A stretch of DNA of 64,000 nt from Ruminococcus sp. (GTDB lineage: Bacteria; Bacillota; Clostridia; Oscillospirales; Ruminococcaceae). The notes below the pieces were generated by a model. That model was not told the origin of the DNA. It searched no databases and saw only the letters and a list, made by a program, of their open reading frames with translations. This document shows, piece by piece, positions 1,915 through 55,968 of this stretch. Each line of letters begins with the position of its first letter. Positions within the stretch are counted from its first letter, which is position 1. Made by a program: the position numbers and the translations under genes. Where the stretch lies: positions 89,057 through 153,056 of the forward strand of contig JAFYGE010000023.1 in the NCBI GenBank assembly GCA_017543335.1, given 5' to 3'.

Positions 1915-2550
1915 ATGATATGCAGATATTGCGGACATGAAGTCAGCGACGGAATAAAATTCTGTAACAACTGCGGAGCTAATCTCGGTGCCGAGCAGCC
2001 TATGCAGGATATTTATTCACAGAATGCTCCTCAAACAGGACAGAACCCATTCCCAAATGCTCCACAGCCTAATGGTATCCCTGAGCCTAATCAGTACGGT
2101 CAGCCGCAGTTCAATGGCGGTAATTTTCCACCAAACGACCTTCCGGTAGTTCCAATGCCAAAAAGAAAAACAAATCCGATACTCGTTGTTGTTATAGTAT
2201 TGATCGTTATCGGACTTGTTGCAGCTGTATTCTCACACATCAACAACGACGTAAACAGAGTAAAGAACGGCACTATAGATATTTCAGAATATAAGGGTAC
2301 TAAATGGGGCGATGCTCTGGACGATGTCTGCAAAGATTCAAAATGGAAGGCATATAAGGACGGCAGCAAACATATGGTAAAGTACACCGGTGTTAAGAAG
2401 TCTGACGGAAAAGAAATCGAAATAATCTTTAAGCTCAGCAGCAACAGAAAGACTTTCTCAGTCGAATCAATAACAGACGACGGTGAAAAGTCAACGAACG
2501 AGACTAAAATAGCATTTACGATAATGCAAATATTCAACGGTTCGCTATAA
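1915..2550 (+). CDS. Zinc-ribbon, single-pass membrane protein of unknown function
   Basis: 211 residues. The N terminus holds a double-CxxC zinc ribbon (CRYCG near residue 3, CNNCG near residue 17). A Pro/Asn/Gln-rich linker (about 25-80) follows, then one membrane helix (about 91-112, Val/Ile-rich) and a polar C-terminal domain of about 100 residues that should lie outside the cell. This layout is common in Firmicutes zinc_ribbon proteins whose role is unknown. Start supported by AGGGGGA before ATG and by its own promoter. A second protein of similar layout is at 26504-27208. Confidence 0.75.
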   Translation: MICRYCGHEVSDGIKFCNNCGANLGAEQPMQDIYSQNAPQTGQNPFPNAPQPNGIPEPNQYGQPQFNGGNFPPNDLPVVPMPKRKTNPILVVVIVLIVIGLVAAVFSHINNDVNRVKNGTIDISEYKGTKWGDALDDVCKDSKWKAYKDGSKHMVKYTGVKKSDGKEIEIIFKLSSNRKTFSVESITDDGEKSTNETKIAFTIMQIFNGSL

Positions 2551-2556
2551 CGTAAA

Positions 2557-2590
2557 AAATTCCCGCACTTCATATGAAGTGCGGGAATTT
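2557..2590. terminator. Bidirectional intrinsic terminator
   Basis: A perfect 34-base palindrome (core TCCCGCACTTCAT and its complement) with A/T flanks on both sides, between the convergent zinc-ribbon gene and the TraB gene. It can end transcription in both directions. Confidence 0.85.
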
Positions 2591-2594
2591 CTGT

Positions 2595-3689
2595 TTATTT
2601 CACTCTTTCTACGGTGTATCCTCTTTCAGTGAGGATATCATCAACACCTTCAGCACCTGCAAAGTGAAGAGTTCCTACCATGAAGAAATACTTCTTTCCG
2701 TCCTTTAAGAAACCTTCAGCAGCATCTGCCATGTTCTTATTTCTTTCGTGTAACATTACATCCTGATATGCTGCATAATCATCCTTCAACTCCTCCGGCA
2801 GCTTACCTGAAATATCATCAATTTCAGCAAGTTTATCCGGATCACCTGCTGCCCACGCATCATATAGTTTGCTGATTTCAGCAGCATACTCGGAAATCGG
2901 AGTATCTTCTTCTGAACTCAACATAAAGTCTGCAAGCTCATCAGTATAGGCGGTTATAGCTTTAGCCTGTATTTCGAAATTTTCTATCTCTACTATCTTT
3001 TTTCCGTCCTTATCGGCAAGGTCGGAGAACTTCCAGTCCACGCCTTCACTTGATATATTTTTTATTTTAAGCAGTTTTAAGCTTTCTATTTCTGAGATCC
3101 AGAATCCCGGAACATAATTATCCAACAAAGTATTATACATTCCCAATTCCTTGAGCATCTCTACTCCGTTTTCATAAGCTTTCTGAGAAATGTGGTCTTT
3201 TATGGTAGTACCGTCTGTCAGCACCTGATAGGATAGGTACTCCTGAAGGTTTACCGTATCCCTCAGCTTTCTTGCATCACACTCTATCGCTATACCTTCT
3301 GAATCCTTATACACATCCATAAGGTAATCAGGAATTTTGAATTTTTCTTCACTTACTACATGAATAGTGCCGAGCATATAAAGCTCGTTTCCGGTTTCAG
3401 GATCTGTAGCTTTCCAAAGTGCCGGAGTTGGCTCGTCAACAGTTATATAGTCATTTATATCTTCTGATTTTTCTTCGCTTGACCCAGATTCTGTAGAAGC
3501 TTCAGTTTCTTTTTCCTCTGTAGTATTTTCCTCAGAATCGTCAGTTTCCTCTGTTGTAGTATCTGCTGATTCAGTTATAGTCTCAGATGATGATGAACTT
3601 TTGGACGAACTTTCACTTCTTCCGCATGAAACAGCTGAAACAGACATTGCTGCTGCAAGAGATATACATAATAATTTAAAAATTTTCAT
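2595..3689 (-). CDS. TraB/GumN family lipoprotein
   Basis: 364 residues. An N-terminal signal peptide with Cys near residue 22 (AVSCG) suggests a lipoprotein, although the lipobox is not ideal (Ala at -3). A Ser/Thr/Glu-rich spacer covers about 25-80. The TraB/GumN domain (PF01963) starts near 90 (ALWKATDP) and has the paired motifs GTIHV near residue 108 and GTLHFAG near 342, the conserved Gly-x-x-His elements of this family. Related Tiki proteins are metalloproteases; the bacterial role is not established. It has its own promoter at 3726-3754 and converges with the previous gene. Confidence 0.85.
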   Translation of the reverse strand: MKIFKLLCISLAAAMSVSAVSCGRSESSSKSSSSSETITESADTTTEETDDSEENTTEEKETEASTESGSSEEKSEDINDYITVDEPTPALWKATDPETGNELYMLGTIHVVSEEKFKIPDYLMDVYKDSEGIAIECDARKLRDTVNLQEYLSYQVLTDGTTIKDHISQKAYENGVEMLKELGMYNTLLDNYVPGFWISEIESLKLLKIKNISSEGVDWKFSDLADKDGKKIVEIENFEIQAKAITAYTDELADFMLSSEEDTPISEYAAEISKLYDAWAAGDPDKLAEIDDISGKLPEELKDDYAAYQDVMLHERNKNMADAAEGFLKDGKKYFFMVGTLHFAGAEGVDDILTERGYTVERVK

Positions 3690-3725
3690 GTTGAATTACC
3701 TTCTTTATATTATAATGATGTGTAA

Positions 3726-3754
3726 ATTTTATCATAAAATTTACTATTTGTCAA
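3726..3754 (-). promoter_or_regulatory. Sigma-A promoter of the TraB-family gene
   Basis: Minus strand TTGACA (3754-3749), 17 bp, TAAAAT (3731-3726). Confidence 0.7.
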
Positions 3755-3878
3755 TAGCAGCCTTTGGTCACTGTAATTAAACAAACAAAAATATCAGCAT
3801 TTTTTTAAAAAAAGCTTTTATTTGCGAAACAAATGTGTTATAATAAATACGTATATTCTTATACACGGAGGTTTTATA

Positions 3879-6410
3879 ATGTCAAAAAACAAAACGTACT
3901 ACCAAGGATACGAAAAAGAAAAGTATTTTCTGGCATTCATACTCGGATTCGGATGCCTTATAATTTCACTTCTTCCGATGATGATAGTCAATCACGGCTA
4001 TTTTGTTTATTCCGGAGACTATAATGCTCAGCAGATACCTTTTTATAATATGGCTAATGATACCGTAAGGAGCGGATCATTCGGCTGGAACTGGCTAACA
4101 GACCTCGGTTCTGACTTCATGACTTCTTACTCGTTCTACCTTTTTGGAAGTCCGTTTTTCTGGCTCTCAACACTGCTTCCAAGGGGACTTGTAACTTATG
4201 CGATGCCTTTCCTCCTTGCTTTGAAGCACGGTCTTGCGTCACTTACCGCATATGCTTACATAAGAAGATTTGTTAAAAATAAATATGCTGCTGTTATCGG
4301 CGGACTTCTCTATGCTTGTTCAGGTTTTCAGGCTTACAACGTCTTCTTCAACCACTTTCAGGACGTTACCGCACTTTTCCCTCTGATGCTGATAGCTATG
4401 GAGGAAGCCATAAATAATAAGCGTAAAGGCGTTTTTGCTATAATGGTAGCTGTAATGGCTATAAACAATTACTATTTCTTCGCAGGTCAGGCAGTGTTCC
4501 TCGTACTTTACTACCTGTTCAGATGGAAGTCTCCTGACTTCCATACCTCATGGAAAAAGTTCTTTGGACTATGCTTTGAGGCTATCGTAGGTACTATGAT
4601 AGCGGCATTTGTACTCCTTCCGTCCGCACTTGCAATAATCAGCAACAAACGTGTAAATGATATGCAGTACGGTCTTGACATGGTAATATACACTGACTCC
4701 ACTATTATTCCACGAGTTATACAGACATTCTTTATGCCGCCTGATCCACCTGCTGCACCGAACCTGTTCTTCTCAGACTACGAAAAATGGGCTTCTATCG
4801 GCGGATATTTCCCACTGTTTTCTATGGCCGGAGTTATCGCTTTCATGCACAGCAAAAGAAAGCATTGGGCTACAAAGCTTTCATTCGCACTCATATTCTT
4901 CGCATTCATCCCGGTTCTTAACAGCTTATTCCAGGCTATGAACTTCTATTACTATGCAAGATGGTTCTATATGCCTATTCTGATTTTTGCTATGATGACT
5001 GCTGTTTCACTTGACGACGAGAATGCTGACGTCGATTTCGGTTGGAAGTTCTGTGTAGGAGCAATTACTGTATTTGCAGTAATAGGCTGTCTGCCGTCCC
5101 AATTATTCAACAGCAAACCATTCTTCTTCCTGCTGCCGGACGACATCGCTTACTTCTGGATAGTAATAGGAGTTGCTGTTGCTTGTCTGATCGTATCAAA
5201 GATAATCTTCATAAAGAAAAAGAATCATAAACCATTTATAAAAGCATCAGTATATGTAACAGCTTTTGCTGCGATTGGATGCTTCTTTACAACCTTCCTT
5301 TATACTGCTGCAAACATTGATACGGAAAGATATTATGTTGATAATGTTATTGACGGCAAGAAATATGTATACGAGGAGGCAGATGAAGATAATTTCTTCC
5401 GTATCGATACCAGCGACAGTTACGAAAATATGGGAATGATATGGGGACTTCCAAATATGAGATGTTTCCAGAGTACTGTAAATACCTCGATCATGGATTT
5501 CTACAATGCAATAGATTTAGGAAGAGATGTAGGCTCCCGTGCAGATCCATCACACTTCACTTTAAGAGGATTATTATCAGTAAAATATTTCTACAGACCT
5601 ATCGAAAATAATAAAACTTATCAGGTTCTTTTATCAGATGACGAAGAGAGAGATAAACAGAAACTTGCCATGGCTCTTAACGGTGGTGAAAAGAAAGACT
5701 TCTCCAACGCAATTATTCCGGAAGAGATACCCGGATTTGAGTATATCGAGACAAGAGGAGATTACGAAATATACGAAAACAAGCTCTTTATACCAATGGG
5801 TATAGCATATGATACTTATATATCCGAAGATAATGCAGATGATAAGAAGGCTAAACAGAGAGAAAGAGTTCTGCTTGATGCTCTTGTATTGAGTGACGAC
5901 CAGATAAAGAAATACTCTGATATAATGACGGAATATACAAGCAAAAAATCTCTTGATAAGGACGATTACACCAAATTCTGCAAGCAGAAAAGAGCTAAAG
6001 CTTCATCTTATTTCAAATACGACTCTCATGGATTTGAGTCAGGAATCACACTTGATAAACCTCAGCTCGTATTCTACAGCGTACCTTACAGCGACGGCTG
6101 GACCGCCGAAGTAAACGGCAAAAAGGTCGATGTTGAAAAAGTATCCTACGGATTTATGGCTGTAAAGGCAGAAGCAGGAGAAAATAATATCGTATTCCAC
6201 TATGAAACTCCGGGACTCAGATATGGTATCATAATATCTGTCTCAGGCATAGCACTGCTTCTCGGATATCTTATAATCGGCTTTATAATAAAGAAAAAGA
6301 GTAAGAATAACGAAGTGGGTCATACACATTATTATGATTATGAGTCGATACAGAAAATCGATGCTTCTCAGGAATATATAAGAAGCCTCATAGGAAAGGA
6401 TAAGAAATAA
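3879..6410 (+). CDS. YfhO-family polytopic membrane protein
   Basis: 843 residues from the ATG at 3879, which has CGGAGG eight bases upstream; an upstream TTG at 3822 lacks a ribosome site. The first 490 or so residues hold about 12 membrane helices with the early GDYNAQQIPFY stretch typical of YfhO (PF09586). A large extracytoplasmic domain follows (about 500-785, with a YSDGW motif near its end), then a last helix and a short cytoplasmic tail. In Bacillus and Listeria, YfhO-type proteins glycosylate lipoteichoic acid using lipid-linked sugars, so a role in decorating surface polymers is a fair inference. A -10 box TATAAT lies at 3839-3844. The Nudix gene follows after two bases. Confidence 0.85.
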   Translation: MSKNKTYYQGYEKEKYFLAFILGFGCLIISLLPMMIVNHGYFVYSGDYNAQQIPFYNMANDTVRSGSFGWNWLTDLGSDFMTSYSFYLFGSPFFWLSTLLPRGLVTYAMPFLLALKHGLASLTAYAYIRRFVKNKYAAVIGGLLYACSGFQAYNVFFNHFQDVTALFPLMLIAMEEAINNKRKGVFAIMVAVMAINNYYFFAGQAVFLVLYYLFRWKSPDFHTSWKKFFGLCFEAIVGTMIAAFVLLPSALAIISNKRVNDMQYGLDMVIYTDSTIIPRVIQTFFMPPDPPAAPNLFFSDYEKWASIGGYFPLFSMAGVIAFMHSKRKHWATKLSFALIFFAFIPVLNSLFQAMNFYYYARWFYMPILIFAMMTAVSLDDENADVDFGWKFCVGAITVFAVIGCLPSQLFNSKPFFFLLPDDIAYFWIVIGVAVACLIVSKIIFIKKKNHKPFIKASVYVTAFAAIGCFFTTFLYTAANIDTERYYVDNVIDGKKYVYEEADEDNFFRIDTSDSYENMGMIWGLPNMRCFQSTVNTSIMDFYNAIDLGRDVGSRADPSHFTLRGLLSVKYFYRPIENNKTYQVLLSDDEERDKQKLAMALNGGEKKDFSNAIIPEEIPGFEYIETRGDYEIYENKLFIPMGIAYDTYISEDNADDKKAKQRERVLLDALVLSDDQIKKYSDIMTEYTSKKSLDKDDYTKFCKQKRAKASSYFKYDSHGFESGITLDKPQLVFYSVPYSDGWTAEVNGKKVDVEKVSYGFMAVKAEAGENNIVFHYETPGLRYGIIISVSGIALLLGYLIIGFIIKKKSKNNEVGHTHYYDYESIQKIDASQEYIRSLIGKDKK

Positions 6411-49662: not shown

Positions 49663-52416
49663 TTAATTATTTTCCTTATTCTTACAGCACTTCTTGTACT
49701 TCTTGCCGCTTCCGCATGGACAAGGGTCATTGTCCCCTATCTTCTTTGCACGGACCGGTTCAGAGAAGCTTCCGTCGCCGTTTCCTGCGTTTGGAGCATC
49801 AGGCTTTGCAACCTGCTCACGCTCAGGAACAGCATCCTTACGTACCTTTACTGTAAGGAGCATACGGATAGTATCCTCACGGATAGAATCTACCATAGCA
49901 TCGAACATCTCGAAACCTTCATAACGATACTCGATAACAGGGTTCTTCTGACCATAGGAACGAAGTCCGATACCCTTCTTGAGCTCTTCCATATCGTCGA
50001 TATGAGCCATCCACTTAGTATCAACAACTTTAAGGAGGATAACACGCTCAAGCTCACGCATGATATCAGAGCCGTACTCTTCTTCCTTAGCCTGATAGAT
50101 CTCTCCAGCCTTTTCTTTGAGTGCGTTTCTGATGTCTTCTTTCTCGACTTCATCCATATCGTCCTCATCAAATGTAAGGTCTTCTTCATTGATGAGCCAG
50201 CCGAGGAAGTAGTCTTTGAGTCCGACAAGGTTCCAGTTTTCCTTCTCATCATCCTCTGTAAGGTAAAGGTCAACAGTAGAGTCGATGAGGTCTTCCATCA
50301 TCTTCAGGATGCTCTCGTGAAGGTCTTCACCGTCGAGCACCTGTGCACGCTGCTTGTAGATTATCTCACGCTGTGTATTCATAACGTCGTCGTAGTTGAG
50401 GACGTTCTTTCTTATGCTGAAGTTCTGACCCTCGACCTTCTTCTGTGAAGACTCGATGATCTTTGTAAGGAGCTTGCTCTCAATAGGCATACCCTCATCA
50501 ACATTGAGAGTTCTCATCATATTTTCAAGACGGTCACCAGCGAAGATACGCATAAGGTCGTCCTCTACAGAGAGGAAGAAGCAGCTCTCGCCCTCGTCGC
50601 CCTGACGTCCTGAACGTCCACGGAGCTGATTGTCGATACGTCTTGACTCATGACGCTCTGTACCGAGGATATAGAGTCCGCCGGCTTCTTTTACCTTTAC
50701 AGCCTTCTCCTTTACCTCAGCGTTGTACTTATCATAAAGTTCACGGTAAAGCTTTCTTGCTTCGAGTATCTCTTTATCATCGGTATCAGCAAAGCCGATA
50801 GCTTCTGTGATTATTTCCTCAGGAACTTCACGCTTTCTCATTTCAGCTCTTGCAAGGAATTCAGCGTTACCGCCGAGCATGATATCAGTACCACGTCCAG
50901 CCATGTTTGTAGCGATAGTAACTGCACCATACTTACCAGCCTGAGCAACGATCTCAGCTTCCTTTGCGTGATGCTTAGCGTTGAGGACTTCGTGCTTTAT
51001 GCCCTTTCTCTTCAGCATAGCTGAAAGGAGCTCAGATTTCTCGATAGATACAGTACCAACGAGGATAGGCTGACCTTTTTCGTGGCACTCGATGATCTTG
51101 TCGATTATAGCTGCGTACTTGCCCTTTTCTGAGCTGTATACCTGATCGTTGTGATCGATACGGATAACAGGCTTGTTTGTAGGGATAGAGATAACGTCGA
51201 GTTTATAGATCTCCTTGAACTCATCTTCCTCAGTCATAGCAGTACCGGTCATACCGGAGAGCTTTGTATAAAGACGGAAGAAGTTCTGGAATGTGATAGT
51301 AGCAAGAGTCTTTGACTCGCTCTTGATCTTAACACCTTCCTTAGCTTCGATAGCCTGATGAAGACCGTCATTGAAACGACGTCCCATCATAAGACGTCCG
51401 GTGAACTCGTCAACGATGATAACTTCGTCGTCCTTAACAACGTAATCGACCTCGTTCTTCATAACACCGTTAGCCTTGATAGCCTGATTGATGTGGTGAA
51501 GGAGAGTCATATTTTCGGAATCCATGAGGTTCTCTACATTAAATGCCTTCTCTGCCTTCTTAACACCACGCTGAGTGATAGTAGCAGTCTTAGCCTTTTC
51601 GTCAATGATATAGTCGGCAGTTTCGTTTATAGAATCCTGATCCACCTTGTCGTCCATTTCAACGACTGTTGTGGAGGTAAGAGTCTTAGCAAAGCGGTCA
51701 ACTATTGAATAAAGCTCTGTGGACTTGTCGCCTCTGCCTGAAATGATAAGAGGTGTACGAGCCTCATCGATAAGGATAGAGTCGACCTCATCGACGATCG
51801 CAAAGTTAGGAGCTCTCTGAACACGCTCTTCCTTGTGAGTTACCATGTTATCACGGAGGTAATCGAATCCGAGCTCGTTATTTGTAGCATATGTAACATC
51901 ACAGTTATATGCAGCACGTCTTTCGTCATTTGTAAGTCCGTGGAGGATACAGCCTACGGTGAGTCCGAGCCAGCGGAGTACCTTACCCATTTCCTCTGCC
52001 TGAGTCTTAGCGAGGTAGTCGTTAACAGTTACGACATGAACGCCGAGTCCGGAAAGAGCATTGAGGTATGAAGCTACGCAGGCAACGAGTGTTTTACCTT
52101 CACCGGTCTTCATCTCAGCGATACGTCCCTGATGAAGAACGATAGCACCGATTATCTGTACCGGATATGGCTTCTTTTCGAGAACTCTCCATGCTGCCTC
52201 TCTGACAGTGGCAAGAGCCTCCGGAAGAATGTCGTCAAGAGTTTCTCCGTCTTCAAGTCTCTCTTTGAATTCCTGTGTTTTTCCCTTGAGTTCGGCATCG
52301 GAAAGCTCCGAATACTCCTCGTCAAGTGCGAGTACTTTATTTTTTATAGGTTCGATACGCTTCAGCTCTCTGTTGCTGTAGGCGTTCGCACCGAAAATTC
52401 CTGTGAATAAACCCAT
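49663..52416 (-). CDS. secA: Preprotein translocase ATPase SecA
   Basis: 917 residues from the ATG at 52416 (AAAGGCGG site). SecA drives unfolded preproteins through SecYEG. It begins [19 protein letters not shown]; Walker A MKTGEGKT is near residue 103, the DEVDS Walker B near 208 and [11 protein letters not shown] near 490. The C terminus has the zinc-binding SEC-C motif [13 protein letters not shown] that contacts SecB or ribosomes. Its own promoter and a short leader hairpin (CTCCG/CGGAG near 52455-52472) precede it. Confidence 0.96.
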
Positions 52417-52492
52417 TTGTTTACCGCCTTTATTGTGTTTTTTGTGAAATGTTCCTCCGCTATTTACCGGAGTATATAAATACATATAATAT

Positions 52493-52521
52493 ATTTTACA
52501 ACAATTGCTACTATTTGTCAA
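52493..52521 (-). promoter_or_regulatory. Sigma-A promoter of secA
   Basis: Minus strand TTGACA (52521-52516), 17 bp, TAAAAT (52498-52493). Confidence 0.75.
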
Positions 52522-52542
52522 TACCTGCGTTCAAAAAAACTT

Positions 52543-52590
52543 AATATATTTAAAAGAACAGCCCTTTCGGACTGTTCTTTTAAATATATT
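52543..52590 (-). terminator. Intrinsic terminator of the HEPN gene
   Basis: A 19-bp perfect stem (52543-52561 with 52572-52590), extended on the minus strand by CAGTCC-GAAA-GGGCTG with a GNRA tetraloop. The lower stem is A/T only, so the transcript ends in TTTTAAATATATT. Confidence 0.8.
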
Positions 52591-52596
52591 TATCAA

Positions 52597-53265
52597 TCAA
52601 TTGTTTTTAGGCTTATTATTTTTTAATATTATTTTTTTATCCTCAATACAATACCCACTTGTTTTTTTAATATATGCTTCTAAATCAACAAGTCTTAGAT
52701 AATAATCACGATAATGCGTCTTATCCGGGGATTCAATTAAATCCTCAACAATTTGAGAAAACCTCTCATATACCTCAAAAAGTCTGCTTATTTGAGAGTA
52801 ATCAAGAGCTTGCATTTGGGTTGTAAGTTCATTATTCACATGAGTGCAATCATTATTTAAGCATTCTTTCCATTGACCATGTGCAACTTTATTACGAATC
52901 TTGCTTGGCTTTATTATATACTCATCCAAAATATTTAATAATTTCTTTTTTTTATTTGCAGTTTCACCGTCTTTATCTAATGAAGACAATGCAAACTCCA
53001 TACATTTCTTCCATTTTTCCTCAAGATTCCTGCATTTTAAAACTTGATTAATTTGATTATCATCAAAACCATACGGAGTGTTAATCATTTTTAAAAAAGC
53101 TGTTTCAGCAAAAGCAGAATACATCAACGCATAAACCTTAGTCAAAGTTTCCACTTCGTAACAATTACCAGATTTTAGTTCTGCATTTATCAAACGCTTA
53201 ACATTTTTAGCTCTTTTTTTCAGTTCAGCAACATTTTGAACACTCGCCTTATAAATATCAATCAT
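52597..53265 (-). CDS. HEPN-domain protein, possible ribonuclease
   Basis: 222 residues, nearly all helical, Lys-rich and much more AT-rich than its neighbours. The motif IRNKVAHGQW holds Arg124 and His129 in the R-x4-H spacing of catalytic HEPN ribonucleases (toxins, abortive-infection proteins, RiboL-PSP-type HEPN). No membrane helix or second domain. It lies 54 bases downstream of a degenerate tRNA-like sequence with a strong promoter and no partner protein gene is adjacent. Cellular role unknown; defence or toxin function is inference from motif and context. Start ATG at 53265 has no strong ribosome site. Confidence 0.7.
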   Translation of the reverse strand: MIDIYKASVQNVAELKKRAKNVKRLINAELKSGNCYEVETLTKVYALMYSAFAETAFLKMINTPYGFDDNQINQVLKCRNLEEKWKKCMEFALSSLDKDGETANKKKKLLNILDEYIIKPSKIRNKVAHGQWKECLNNDCTHVNNELTTQMQALDYSQISRLFEVYERFSQIVEDLIESPDKTHYRDYYLRLVDLEAYIKKTSGYCIEDKKIILKNNKPKNN

Positions 53266-53285
53266 AATAATTCATAGCGATTTAA

Positions 53286-53327
53286 GGGTATTAAAATACA
53301 TTTTTTCCAAAATGTACTTTAATACCC
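53286..53327. repeat. 19-bp inverted repeat at the 3' end of the tRNA-like sequence
   Basis: GGGTATTAAAATACATTTT (53286-53304) and AAAATGTACTTTAATACCC (53309-53327), one mismatch. The second arm includes the acceptor-end bases of the tRNA-like sequence, so RNA from there would form a hairpin before the HEPN start. Confidence 0.75.
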
Positions 53328-53391
53328 CGGAATCGAACCGGGACCTCCTTCACAAATGTAAAGACGCTCTACCTTATTAAGCTAGTATTGC
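53319..53391 (-). pseudogene. tRNA-like sequence, degenerate (Val-like)
   Basis: Minus strand. A tRNA plan is clear: acceptor 5' arm GCAATAC, TA linker, D-stem GCTT/GAGC, and a full T-arm CCCGG-TTCGATT-CCGGG. However, the acceptor 3' arm reads GTATTAA, so the two outer pairs are lost, no CCA is encoded, and the anticodon stem cannot form with a 7-base loop (best folds give loops of 6 or 9). TTTACAT in that region recalls a Val TAC anticodon loop. It may be a decayed tRNA gene, an integration remnant or a tRNA mimic. A perfect promoter precedes it, with the predicted start at its first base. Confidence 0.65.
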
Positions 53392-53397
53392 AACATT

Positions 53398-53426
53398 ATT
53401 ATAACATTAAAGTTATAATTTGTCAA
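53398..53426 (-). promoter_or_regulatory. Consensus sigma-A promoter of the tRNA-like/HEPN unit
   Basis: Minus strand TTGACA (53426-53421), 17 bp, TATAAT (53403-53398), all twelve consensus positions matched. Start expected near 53391, the 5' end of the tRNA-like sequence. Confidence 0.82.
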
Positions 53427-53496
53427 TCAAAAATATAAATTTCATAATGCCTCAAATGCAAAAAGGACTGCCGTTAAAGAACAGCAGTCCCGAACA

Positions 53497-55968
53497 TCAA
53501 TATTTCTTAGTATTGAGCACTCTTATAGAATTGAGTATCAGCAGCATAGCCGTACCGGAGTCCGCAAAAACTGCGAACCACATATTAGGTATTCCTGCAA
53601 GTCCGAGGATAAGCACCGCTGCTTTTATAGCGAGTGCAAAAGCGATATTTTCATATGACACCCTCAGAGCTTTGTCTGCTATACGTTTTGCCTTGACTAC
53701 AGCCTCAGGCTCGGAATTCATAAATACAGCGTCAGCCGCTTCAAGAGCAAGGTCAGCACCGGTATGCATAGCTCCGCCGACGTCAGCTCCGGCGAGTACA
53801 GGGCCGTCATTGATACCGTCGCCCACGAACATAACAGCTCCGGACTTACTGCGTATCTTCTCTATCTCAGCAAGCTTACCGTCCGGAAGCAGACCGCCGT
53901 AAGCCTTATCCACACCAAGCTCAGTACCGACTGTCTCAGCATTTTCCGACTTATCTCCCGTTAGCATAGCAGTAAATATTCCCATTCTTTTAAGCTCCGC
54001 AACAGCTTCTTTTGAAGTATTCTTTACAGTATCCGAGACTACTATCCTGCCCGAGAGTTTGCCGTCAACAGCTATATAAACAACGCTTCCGGCAGTTTTT
54101 TCCTCAGTCTCTCCGATAGAAATATTATTTTCAGACATAAGTCTTTCATTTCCGCAGAGTATATTTTTTCCTTCCAGCACAGCTGAAACTCCCCTGCCGG
54201 CAAGTTCACTCACCTTATCAGGCTCACTTAGAGCAACTGAATTATTCTTACAGTATTCAACAATACTTTCCGCAACAGGGTGAGTTGAGGACTGCTCACA
54301 GCTTCCGCAAATCTTCAGTATTTCATTTTCGCTCACGTTTCCATAACTCTTTACTGATGTTACATTAAAGCTTCCGTTTGTGAGAGTACCTGTCTTGTCG
54401 AAAGCTATAGCCTTGACTTTTCCAAGAGCTTCTATAGCATCTCCGCCTTTAAAGAGTATTCCAAGCTTTGAAGCAGCTCCGATTCCGGAAAAATATGCAA
54501 GCGGCACACTTAATACCAACGCACACGGACAGCTTATTACCAGAAAAGTTAGTGCAGTATATATCCATTTATTCCAATCACCGGTTATGAGTGACGGTAC
54601 AACTGCTGTGACAGCAGCTATAGCTATTACTATCGGAGTATAAACTTTTGCAAATCTTGTTATGAAGCGGTCTATTTTAGGCTTTCCGGCAGAAGCATCC
54701 TCGACAGCATGAGCTATTTTTGCTATCATGGAGTCGTCTGCTGCTGCTGTTGCACGGAGAGTAAATGTATCAGAAAGATTTATGCATCCCGACATTACTG
54801 AATCGCCTGTCTTTACTCCTACCGGCACAGGTTCACCGGTCACTGCTGAGGTGTCTATTCGTGATTCTCCGGACTCTATAACACCGTCAACCGCTATACG
54901 TTCTCCGGCTTTTATTCTCAGAATATCACCTATCTCTATCTCGTCAGAAGATATACGCCTGTACTCGCCGTCACGGAGAACGTCAGCTTCTTCGACTTTA
55001 AGTCCCGCAACATCTGTTATAGCTTTTCTGCTCTTTGAAACAGCATAGTCCTCAAAAAGCTCGCCTATCTTGAAGAACAGTACAACTCCGACTGCTTCTG
55101 CGTACTCTCCAAGAGCAAACGCACCTATAGTCGCAACGGTCATAAGGGTATTTTCATCAAAGAAATTGCGTACTTTTATGTTCTTCCATGTAGCTTTAAG
55201 AACTCCCGAACCCAATATCAGATAGGAAGCTGCAAAAAGCACTATCGTCAGCGGTAAAATGTCGAGAAGTTTTCCGGTGAGCAAAGCTGCTCCAAAAAGA
55301 AGTATACCTATTATAAAGGGGACAGCCTCATGAGCAAGTCCTGATTTTTCTTTCTCATCATCCTGCTTGCTGTTCGCCTTTTCTATGGGAGCGATCACAA
55401 CTCCCGGTTCTATCGCATCAGCAGTCTTGTTAATGAGTTCAAGAAGCTCATCATCTATATCTCCGTTTATAATGAATTTCTTCATTGGAAAATTCAAAAC
55501 AGCCCCCTCAACTCCGTCAAGATCGTTGAGAGCTTCCTCTATTTTCGCACCGCAGTGAGCACAGTCAAGATTAGAAATGCTGAACTCCCTGCTTTTCGCA
55601 TTGATATTTATATGTCTCTCATTGTGGTAATGCTCATGGTCATGGTCACAGCAATGGTCATGCTCGTGGTGATGCTCGTGGTCGTGGTCACAGCAATGAT
55701 CATGCTCGTGGTGATGCTCGTGGTCATGGTGATGCTTGTGAGCATCGTGCTTCTCGTGAGGTATTATCTCTACGTCAGGCTCTATCTTTTTGGCAAGTTC
55801 ATTCATACGCTTTACCGTTTCGTCCGTAACATCTCCGTGAACTTTAAGCTTCATCATCGGGAAATTCAGCACAACAGCTTCTATCCCCTCGATCCTGCTT
55901 ATAGCTTCTTCTATTTTAGCACCGCAATTGGCACAATCAAGATTTTTTATACTAAAGACCTTCTCCAT
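53497..55968 (-). CDS. Zinc/cadmium-type P1B ATPase with two HMA domains and His-rich linker
   Basis: 823 residues. Two metal-binding HMA domains with CxxC sites (Cys12-Cys15 and the matching pair near 136-139) are joined by a His/Asp/Glu linker (about 74-118) holding a tandem 14-residue repeat. The ATPase core has AVTGEP, the membrane motif SCPCALVLS, DKTGTLTNG with the phosphorylated Asp, STHPVAE and GDGINDGP. The CPC motif plus His-rich linker fits Zn2+/Cd2+ export (ZntA/CadA). It has a consensus promoter with a palindromic operator over the start site, so metal induction is likely. No regulator gene is adjacent. Confidence 0.92.
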   Translation of the reverse strand: MEKVFSIKNLDCANCGAKIEEAISRIEGIEAVVLNFPMMKLKVHGDVTDETVKRMNELAKKIEPDVEIIPHEKHDAHKHHHDHEHHHEHDHCCDHDHEHHHEHDHCCDHDHEHYHNERHININAKSREFSISNLDCAHCGAKIEEALNDLDGVEGAVLNFPMKKFIINGDIDDELLELINKTADAIEPGVVIAPIEKANSKQDDEKEKSGLAHEAVPFIIGILLFGAALLTGKLLDILPLTIVLFAASYLILGSGVLKATWKNIKVRNFFDENTLMTVATIGAFALGEYAEAVGVVLFFKIGELFEDYAVSKSRKAITDVAGLKVEEADVLRDGEYRRISSDEIEIGDILRIKAGERIAVDGVIESGESRIDTSAVTGEPVPVGVKTGDSVMSGCINLSDTFTLRATAAADDSMIAKIAHAVEDASAGKPKIDRFITRFAKVYTPIVIAIAAVTAVVPSLITGDWNKWIYTALTFLVISCPCALVLSVPLAYFSGIGAASKLGILFKGGDAIEALGKVKAIAFDKTGTLTNGSFNVTSVKSYGNVSENEILKICGSCEQSSTHPVAESIVEYCKNNSVALSEPDKVSELAGRGVSAVLEGKNILCGNERLMSENNISIGETEEKTAGSVVYIAVDGKLSGRIVVSDTVKNTSKEAVAELKRMGIFTAMLTGDKSENAETVGTELGVDKAYGGLLPDGKLAEIEKIRSKSGAVMFVGDGINDGPVLAGADVGGAMHTGADLALEAADAVFMNSEPEAVVKAKRIADKALRVSYENIAFALAIKAAVLILGLAGIPNMWFAVFADSGTAMLLILNSIRVLNTKKY
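55644..55727. repeat. Tandem 42-bp repeat in the His-rich linker
   Basis: Two near-identical 42-bp units beginning GGTCACAGCAATG (55644 and 55686) encode the duplicated DHEHHHEHDHCC segment of the ATPase. In-frame tandem repeats like this can expand or contract by slippage. Confidence 0.75.

Follow-up and report, generated by a model that had tools for sequence, protein, structure and literature searches.

A tRNA-like RNA and a gene of one HEPN-motif protein family are linked across phyla: the RNA adjoins the gene in 91 of 98 loci, lying upstream on the same strand in 90 and convergently downstream in one. Class 1 of these RNAs keeps the D-arm, the T-arm and a 5-bp acceptor stem under covariation and has no decoding anticodon arm, while the family proteins keep the HEPN catalytic motif. 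We lean towards reading the pair as a defence or toxin-antitoxin module resembling type III systems, with an RNA that mimics tRNA and would restrain a HEPN RNase.

The module in the Ruminococcus window

The window, i.e., the 64,000-nucleotide stretch of Ruminococcus DNA that was analysed, carries on its minus strand, in this order, a promoter, the tRNA-like RNA, a 20-bp hairpin, an open reading frame of 222 amino acids with a HEPN motif and a terminator-like hairpin:

53421..53426, minus strand: -35 hexamer TTGACA (12/12 promoter match with the -10 hexamer)
53398..53403, minus strand: -10 hexamer TATAAT, spacer 17 (12/12 promoter match)
53318..53391, minus strand: tRNA-like RNA, class 1 (Rfam tRNA, 32.0 bits, and our own covariance model)
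53285..53328, minus strand: 20-bp hairpin (fold; covariation in 54 sequences)
52597..53265, minus strand: ORF of 222 aa, HEPN motif R124-N-K-V-A-H129 (translation, alignment)
52543..52590, minus strand: intrinsic-terminator-like hairpin 3' of the HEPN gene (hairpin scan)

This layout agrees closely with the original prediction, made from the sequence of the window, of a perfect promoter (TTGACA-17-TATAAT, 12/12) starting transcription at the first base of the tRNA-like sequence (the -10 hexamer ends 6 nt before 53391), a HEPN gene with an Arg-x4-His motif (R124 and H129 of the ORF at 53265-52597) and a terminator after the gene (the terminator-like hairpin at 52590-52543). The inverted repeat that it placed between RNA and gene is also present, although it measures 20 bp rather than 19, its terminal pair being G-U (53328-53285). 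That no protein partner is adjacent holds as well, the flanking genes being, as we read their translations, presumably secA-like and heavy-metal P-type-ATPase-like. The neighbouring metal-transport ATPase contains, at window positions 55612-55758, a very His-rich repeated linker (HHDHEHHHEHDHCC), which we take to separate two metal-binding-like domains.

Of the 12 promoter-like sites in 52400-53600, a region for which shuffles yield 6.2 sites on average, the promoter at 53426-53398 scores best. Of 51 class 1 loci, with the window counted and three class 1 rows with cut 5' ends excluded, 20 show the same 6-nt gap between the -10 hexamer and nucleotide 1 of the RNA, and the best promoter-like site lies 2-9 nt before the RNA in 28 of the 51, as against 15% of shuffles; in the remaining 23 it is placed elsewhere. 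Where the promoter site fits, the RNA is probably a primary transcript from tRNA position 1.

As a tRNA, the window RNA (53391-53318) scores 32.0 bits with Rfam against a gathering score of 29, near the bottom of the 41 tRNA matches of the genome (29.1-72.9 bits), and it went unreported in a whole-window Rfam scan at the gathering score. ARAGORN calls it Ile(aat) over 95 nt, and our own covariance model gives it 98.7 bits, by construction, as its row belongs to the model. It had been described as having intact D- and T-arms with a broken anticodon arm and acceptor end, and this is borne out: the D-arm (53382-53366) and T-arm (53342-53326) have intact stems, the acceptor forms 5 of 7 pairs (53389-53385 with 53325-53321), and the central arm (53364-53347) is a 7-bp stem with a 4-nt loop. 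The full 151-nt leader, which favours the hairpin when folded alone, is more stable than any of 200 shuffles (z = -4.67); the 79-nt tRNA-like body alone folds into a cloverleaf-like structure of unremarkable stability (z = -1.27; 22/200 shuffles).

Linkage of the RNA to the HEPN gene

Relatives were gathered by protein sequence alone and the upstream DNA was inspected afterwards. The 98 loci comprise the window, two plasmid relatives, 80 genome loci (kept of 114 confirmed) and 15 virus-contig loci; the genome and virus-contig loci came from a search with a three-row protein alignment, and single-protein searches of genome contigs and viral contigs returned no relatives. The RNA sequence of four loci (L078, L119, L120 and L122) duplicates that of another.

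A perfect 5-bp T-arm with a loop beginning GTTCRA occurs within 260 nt upstream of the start codon in 84 of the 98 loci, and a 4-bp T-arm in three further ones (L064, L127, L128). For L101, L105 and L129 the start first assigned lies too far downstream, and the RNA precedes an earlier in-frame start. The only convergent case is L059, where the HEPN gene is followed immediately by the RNA (79.3 bits), encoded on the other strand. Among the RNA-less loci, five (L080, L081, L099, L100, L107) lack a usable start, have a disrupted frame or lie at the edge of a contig, the sequence of L121 begins at its start codon, and L109, an intact HEPN gene for which no RNA was found, is a real exception. By comparison, the T-arm pattern was counted 19 times in 1,125,104 other strand-bases of 97 loci, i.e., 0.0048 per 285 nt, a count to which the L101 and L105 RNAs and some genuine tRNAs contribute. 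Two loci outside the 98, L147 and L151 (a Rhodococcus plasmid), likewise bear the RNA, and the D-arm, T-arm and TTCRA loop of functional tRNA are present in the family RNAs. The proposal that RNA and HEPN gene form a pair is thus strongly supported by these 91 of 98 HEPN loci, and the suggested check of relatives for RNA without HEPN and HEPN without RNA turned out in favour of the pair. The convergent module of L059 (positions 2144-4516) sits between apparent small toxin-antitoxin pairs, which, from their translations, we take to include MazF/PemK-like and PIN-like ORFs.

RNA classes, covariation and the missing anticodon

The RNAs were sorted by eye and by pattern into three classes. Class 1 consists of 57 loci and the window, from which 54 distinct rows were aligned. 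Its tRNA fold, with pairs drawn from one row (L043), has 14 pairs with 95.2% of cells paired, double changes in 10 of the 14 and a covariation score of 0.545 versus 0.231 for shuffled alignments. All five acceptor pairs change on both sides; three acceptor pairs are kept in L035, L040 and L041, and a few rows are cut or misaligned at the acceptor. Covariation is higher in the class 1 hairpin than in the tRNA fold (18 pairs, 95.5% paired, 17/18 with double changes, 0.828 versus 0.263 shuffled). Because the 5' arm of the hairpin contains the acceptor 3' strand, the hairpin and the closed tRNA fold are mutually exclusive, and this strand covaries with two competing partners. A T-tract follows the hairpin in 6 of 53 class 1 loci, so that in most of them the hairpin is probably no intrinsic terminator, an explanation that suits those six loci and that we rejected for the class as a whole.

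In class 2 (17 loci, of which 16 were aligned) the acceptor is rich in G, and the covariation score is 0.430 versus 0.157 shuffled, for a structure predicted on the same rows. This class seems to go without the downstream hairpin, which was absent from the six members folded and was not seen in the sequence of the others. Class 3 (11 loci) is marked by a GTGTAA D-arm and has the hairpin in seven; those without it are L104, L106 and L110, from Methanosarcina and Methanolobus, and L003. One locus, L124, falls outside all three classes.

The anticodon arm was assessed by a register test (5-bp stem, 7-nt loop and U33, small shifts allowed), by which a canonical arm is present in 2 of 54 class 1 RNAs versus 21 of 24 ordinary tRNAs, the latter being the distinct sequences among the 30 of 41 genome tRNA matches given as loci. 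The class 1 central arm has a stem of 5.9 bp, against 4.1 in shuffles. Its loop measures 3-5 nt in 46 of the 54 RNAs (GCAA, GAAA and TTCG among them), by a loop finder that is weak, as it also assigns 3-nt loops to 8 of 24 and 3-4-nt loops to 9 of 24 ordinary tRNAs; for class 1 we therefore relied on the register test, and the anticodon loops of classes 2 and 3 were judged by the weaker loop finder alone. At some family sites ARAGORN reports tRNA-Ile, -Asn, -Tyr or undetermined genes.

The HEPN-motif protein family

Nine residues (N11, E54, W85, R124, N125, A128, H129, G130 and Q131) are invariant in all 60 aligned proteins, and the catalytic motif of HEPN enzymes (Rx4-6H with a polar residue after R) takes the form RN[KR]xAH. 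The invariance is partly by construction, since NxxAHGQW was one of the two search patterns for genome loci (RNxxAHGQ being one of the two for virus contigs); R124, E54 and W85 lie outside the genome-locus patterns. Every one of the 60 proteins matches phrog_12663, a phrog without assigned function. The family is a likely member of the HEPN superfamily, an assignment founded on the motif and on weak matches to HEPN models of Pfam (HEPN_Swt1 7/60, RiboL-PSP 4/60, AbiU2 3/60; best E 0.0012), and the ferritin-like cargo family IMEF_Flp, which is not HEPN, matches more members than any of them (12/60, best E 1.5e-5). The window protein itself matches no Pfam HEPN model; it has no Pfam match over the curated cut-off and none at E<=1 in PADLOC or NCBIfam. 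Across the family, these two collections give scattered weak matches of one or two members each, along with an encapsulin cargo model in seven. A sequence search of the PDB found no HEPN protein, its best hit being a C-type lectin chain (E 1.6e-5, 54 residues) that we dismissed as a chance helix match, and a PDB profile search gave nothing below E 0.2.

RNA class tracks the HEPN protein tree. On a tree of 88 proteins the RNA class changes five times, where the minimum is four and the shuffled mean 30.6 (0/200 shuffles as low); the labels of L059, L101, L105 and L127-L129 had been set by eye beforehand, and L127 and L128, which are rows of the class 1 alignment, were counted as class 3 because of their D-arm. 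The class 2 proteins form one clade with support 100/97.

Distribution and probable mobility

Genomes were scanned for the RNA with a class 1 covariance model. It gave exactly one match (E<=1e-6; 67.3-101.8 bits) in each of 30 HEPN-bearing genomes or records, where rows inside the model match by construction; loci outside the model (L059, L101, L105, L112, L129) score 47.6-79.3 bits, and the ordinary tRNA loci of the window's genome at most 32.8. On other classes the model falls to 32.9 (L067), 27.2 (L069), 25.2 (L124) and 11.8 bits (L104), with no match at E<=1 on L003, L110 and L113, and these low scores mean that it misses class 2 and most of class 3. Across 299 genomes of the phylum, scanned for the RNA side alone under strict filters and with 12 candidates per genome scored among the matches listed, only the genome of the window exceeded 47 bits (98.7; next 46.8). 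In a sample of 249 genomes of Pseudomonas, the genus of L057, the HEPN profile matches two and the RNA model (E<=1e-8) one; the second HEPN gene is preceded by a class 2 RNA that, at 29 bits, is too low for the model search. The HEPN gene itself is sporadic: it was found in 1 of 125 genomes of the window's genus and in 1 of 197 of its family, while a search of 291 genomes of its class gave the window and one weak match with 28% identity.

The proteins in the tree carry ten phylum labels, namely Bacillota, Bacteroidota, Pseudomonadota, Cyanobacteriota, Candidatus Melainabacteria, Myxococcota, Deinococcota, Campylobacterota, Thermodesulfobacteriota and Methanobacteriota; archaeal members include Methanosarcina, and the Rhodococcus plasmid adds Actinomycetota. 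The module was also found on plasmids and virus contigs. Neighbouring genes are unconserved, the largest shared cluster spanning 4 of 94 loci, by which a conserved protein partner was rejected. Some neighbours match PADLOC defence models, e.g., DpdF, PsyrT and PtuA (130 of the 165 nearest listed neighbours were scanned, without a background count). No HEPN match was obtained in GenBank phage records with three queries, nor any match to the L061 module in E. coli genomes; at the top of the matches listed, the DNA of the window element aligns with phage records only in pieces of about 48 nt, the best of which (E 0.01) covers 31% of the query and overlaps a ribonuclease H gene. Two genomes of the same genus (G019 and G135) have secA and lack the HEPN gene. 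Their similarity to the window upstream of secA ends near window position 52527, and no metal ATPase lies within 1.5 kb upstream of secA, so that no simple insertion boundary can be read from them.

Two further observations concern insertion sites. The E. coli plasmid NZ_AP026904 (L152, positions 2501-2917) holds a front-truncated class 3 HEPN remnant, without RNA, that adjoins sitA; among 5,426 E. coli genomes, 293 match at least 80% of the 1163-bp stretch round it, where it adjoins a gene annotated as isocitrate/isopropylmalate dehydrogenase, and from this neighbour the icd site of E. coli may harbour a remnant of the module. In three loci of Rhizobiales type (L066:2323-2412, L074:2325-2413 and L079:2324-2413) a tRNA-Ser(CGA) gene, a typical island site, lies about 450 nt upstream of the RNA.

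Comparison with known systems

The closest parallels are with AbiF, which the available text of two reports describes as a HEPN-like toxin that an RNA from an upstream gene neutralises (PMC12373285, PMC12737573). As in AbiF/AbiFr (RCd22) of the Abi_2 family, as far as those texts describe it, a HEPN-type protein has an RNA directly upstream under one promoter, with a hairpin between RNA and gene and a prophage location (PMC12373285, PMC12737573). The AbiF RNA is described there as two abiF hairpin motifs, whereas the present RNA is tRNA-shaped. The window protein, unlike AbiF, has no PF07751 match at E<=1, and hhalign gives probabilities of 0.5% and 0.2% against two Abi_2 proteins, a weak test with single sequences, in which one short aligned piece superposes the RNxxAH motifs of the window protein and an Abi_2 protein. 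Nor does the abiF RNA motif, for which Rfam has a family, turn up when 53100-53500 is compared with Rfam at E values up to 10, or at the gathering score in the window or 10 relatives.

The type III toxin-antitoxin systems ToxIN, CptIN and TenpIN share with the module an RNA gene just upstream of a presumed endoribonuclease in one transcription unit. Their antitoxins are tandem repeats, whereas the present RNA is single copy (one match in 30/30 genomes or records), and a terminator separates their RNA from the toxin, where here class 1 has a hairpin with a T-tract in 6 of 53 loci and the six folded class 2 members have none. The present protein differs in its HEPN motif; ToxN has a fold other than HEPN. 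The HEPN-MNT (type VII) toxin-antitoxin systems share the HEPN RNase motif with it but apparently not the adjacent MNT nucleotidyltransferase, as clustering found no neighbour family common to more than 4 of 94 loci.

Another RNA of the same kind could be SpF41_sRNA (RF02435, Streptococcus), which by its consensus has a tRNA-like body and a hairpin: window positions 53289-53378 score 38.2 bits against it, below its gathering score of 52, and in 296 genomes SpF41 had no match over the cut-off. According to the available text of one survey, SpF41 is confined to regions exclusive to two strains of S. agalactiae (PMC6064168). Among HEPN effectors, Cas13a is reported, in the portions of two papers available, to cut tRNA anticodons (PMC11042736, PMC12373285); it resembles the present protein in being HEPN and differs in being guide-directed. 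The accessible part of the 2013 HEPN survey mentions neither 'tRNA-like' nor 'tRNA gene' (PMC3710099). Among the open-access papers listed, mostly by title and first lines, none describes a pair of tRNA-mimic RNA and HEPN protein, which may nevertheless have been described elsewhere. Rfam apparently lacks a family for this RNA; in a scan of 10 relatives, only L036 and L066 reached a gathering score, that of tRNA.

Proposed mechanism and alternative readings

We propose a mobile, two-part module of an RNA and a HEPN-family endoribonuclease. One promoter would produce the small tRNA-shaped RNA and, by read-through past the hairpin where one is present, the HEPN mRNA. The RNase-like motif of the protein, together with an RNA that keeps the parts common to tRNAs and loses the variable one, suggests that the protein may be a toxic RNase recognising tRNA-shaped RNA and that the RNA may act as its competitive inhibitor. 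An inhibitor is favoured over a decoy or a guide, although sequence cannot separate them. The order of promoter, RNA, hairpin and gene would set the ratio of RNA to protein, as in type III systems, and the competing acceptor and hairpin folds may set how much free mimic is made versus how much HEPN mRNA is read. Loss of the mimic, e.g., when a phage stops host transcription, would then free the nuclease. A further and distinctly tentative proposal is a separate kind of RNA-protein immune or toxin module, in which a tRNA-directed HEPN nuclease would depend on a dedicated anticodon-less tRNA mimic as its obligate partner. The two exclusive conserved folds of the mimic would form a switch sensing whether it is captured, so that the cell, or a phage attack on tRNA or transcription, would set release of the nuclease by way of a false tRNA.

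Four other readings were weighed against this inhibitory module. We hold it rather improbable that the RNA is a cis-acting leader, i.e., that the HEPN mRNA carries the tRNA-like fold as an operator, bound or cut by HEPN or a tRNA-binding enzyme, with an acceptor/hairpin switch setting translation. Autoregulation of threonyl-tRNA synthetase is a precedent for a tRNA-like operator; the position of the RNA, same-strand and directly upstream in 90 of 98 loci, would suit a leader, as would a hairpin mostly without T-tract and an acceptor 3' strand covarying with both partners as a switch would. Yet in 20 of 51 loci the first base of the RNA coincides with the predicted +1 of a promoter-like site, which is what a free RNA would show, and a pure leader is made less likely by both the opposite-strand RNA of L059 and the hairpin-less RNAs (the six class 2 loci folded, and in class 3 L104, L106, L110 and L003).

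Marginally less probable is that the RNA serves as an activating cofactor, guide or sensor, with a HEPN protein that is inactive without it and a ribonucleoprotein that phage-induced damage to tRNA, or competitors of tRNA type, would alter, switching the nuclease on. The linkage and co-evolution of RNA and HEPN are compatible with such a role, as are the virus contigs and plasmids that bear the module and the neighbours matching PADLOC defence models (again without background), whereas the variable central arm is paired with itself (5.9 versus 4.1 bp), unlike a guide.

The original prediction had offered, as an alternative, an integration scar at a tRNA gene; we weighed it together with a degenerate tRNA gene, as a reading in which the RNA bears no relation to HEPN function. 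The low tRNA score in the window and the real tRNA genes near L066, L074 and L079 would agree with it, but as a general account it is refuted by recurrence of the RNA in 91 of 98 loci, across phyla, with compensatory changes. Nor was a copy relation to the host tRNAs compared found: compared with 24 ordinary tRNAs from its genome, the window RNA reaches an identity of at most 0.53, an unremarkable value less than one standard deviation from the mean of 0.48 among those tRNAs (sd 0.09). We therefore regard a scar as very unlikely. A working but unusual tRNA, for which the intact D- and T-arms and the ARAGORN calls for some members might speak, has the least chance, a next to negligible one, given a canonical anticodon arm in 2 of 54 RNAs, an acceptor of mostly 5 bp and the tie to one gene family.

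Implications

If the preferred reading of a tRNA mimic restraining a HEPN RNase is right, the module would represent an undescribed family of RNA-controlled HEPN nucleases across bacteria and archaea, and, besides AbiF, another case of a HEPN nuclease under the control of an adjacent RNA. Its RNA partner would hint at the recognition target, namely tRNA shape, and would offer a ready test of tRNA mimicry as a means of restraining a nuclease, and the family would bear on the origin of RNA-bound HEPN enzymes such as Cas13. Some of the odd tRNA calls found in annotated genomes may also be due to this family.
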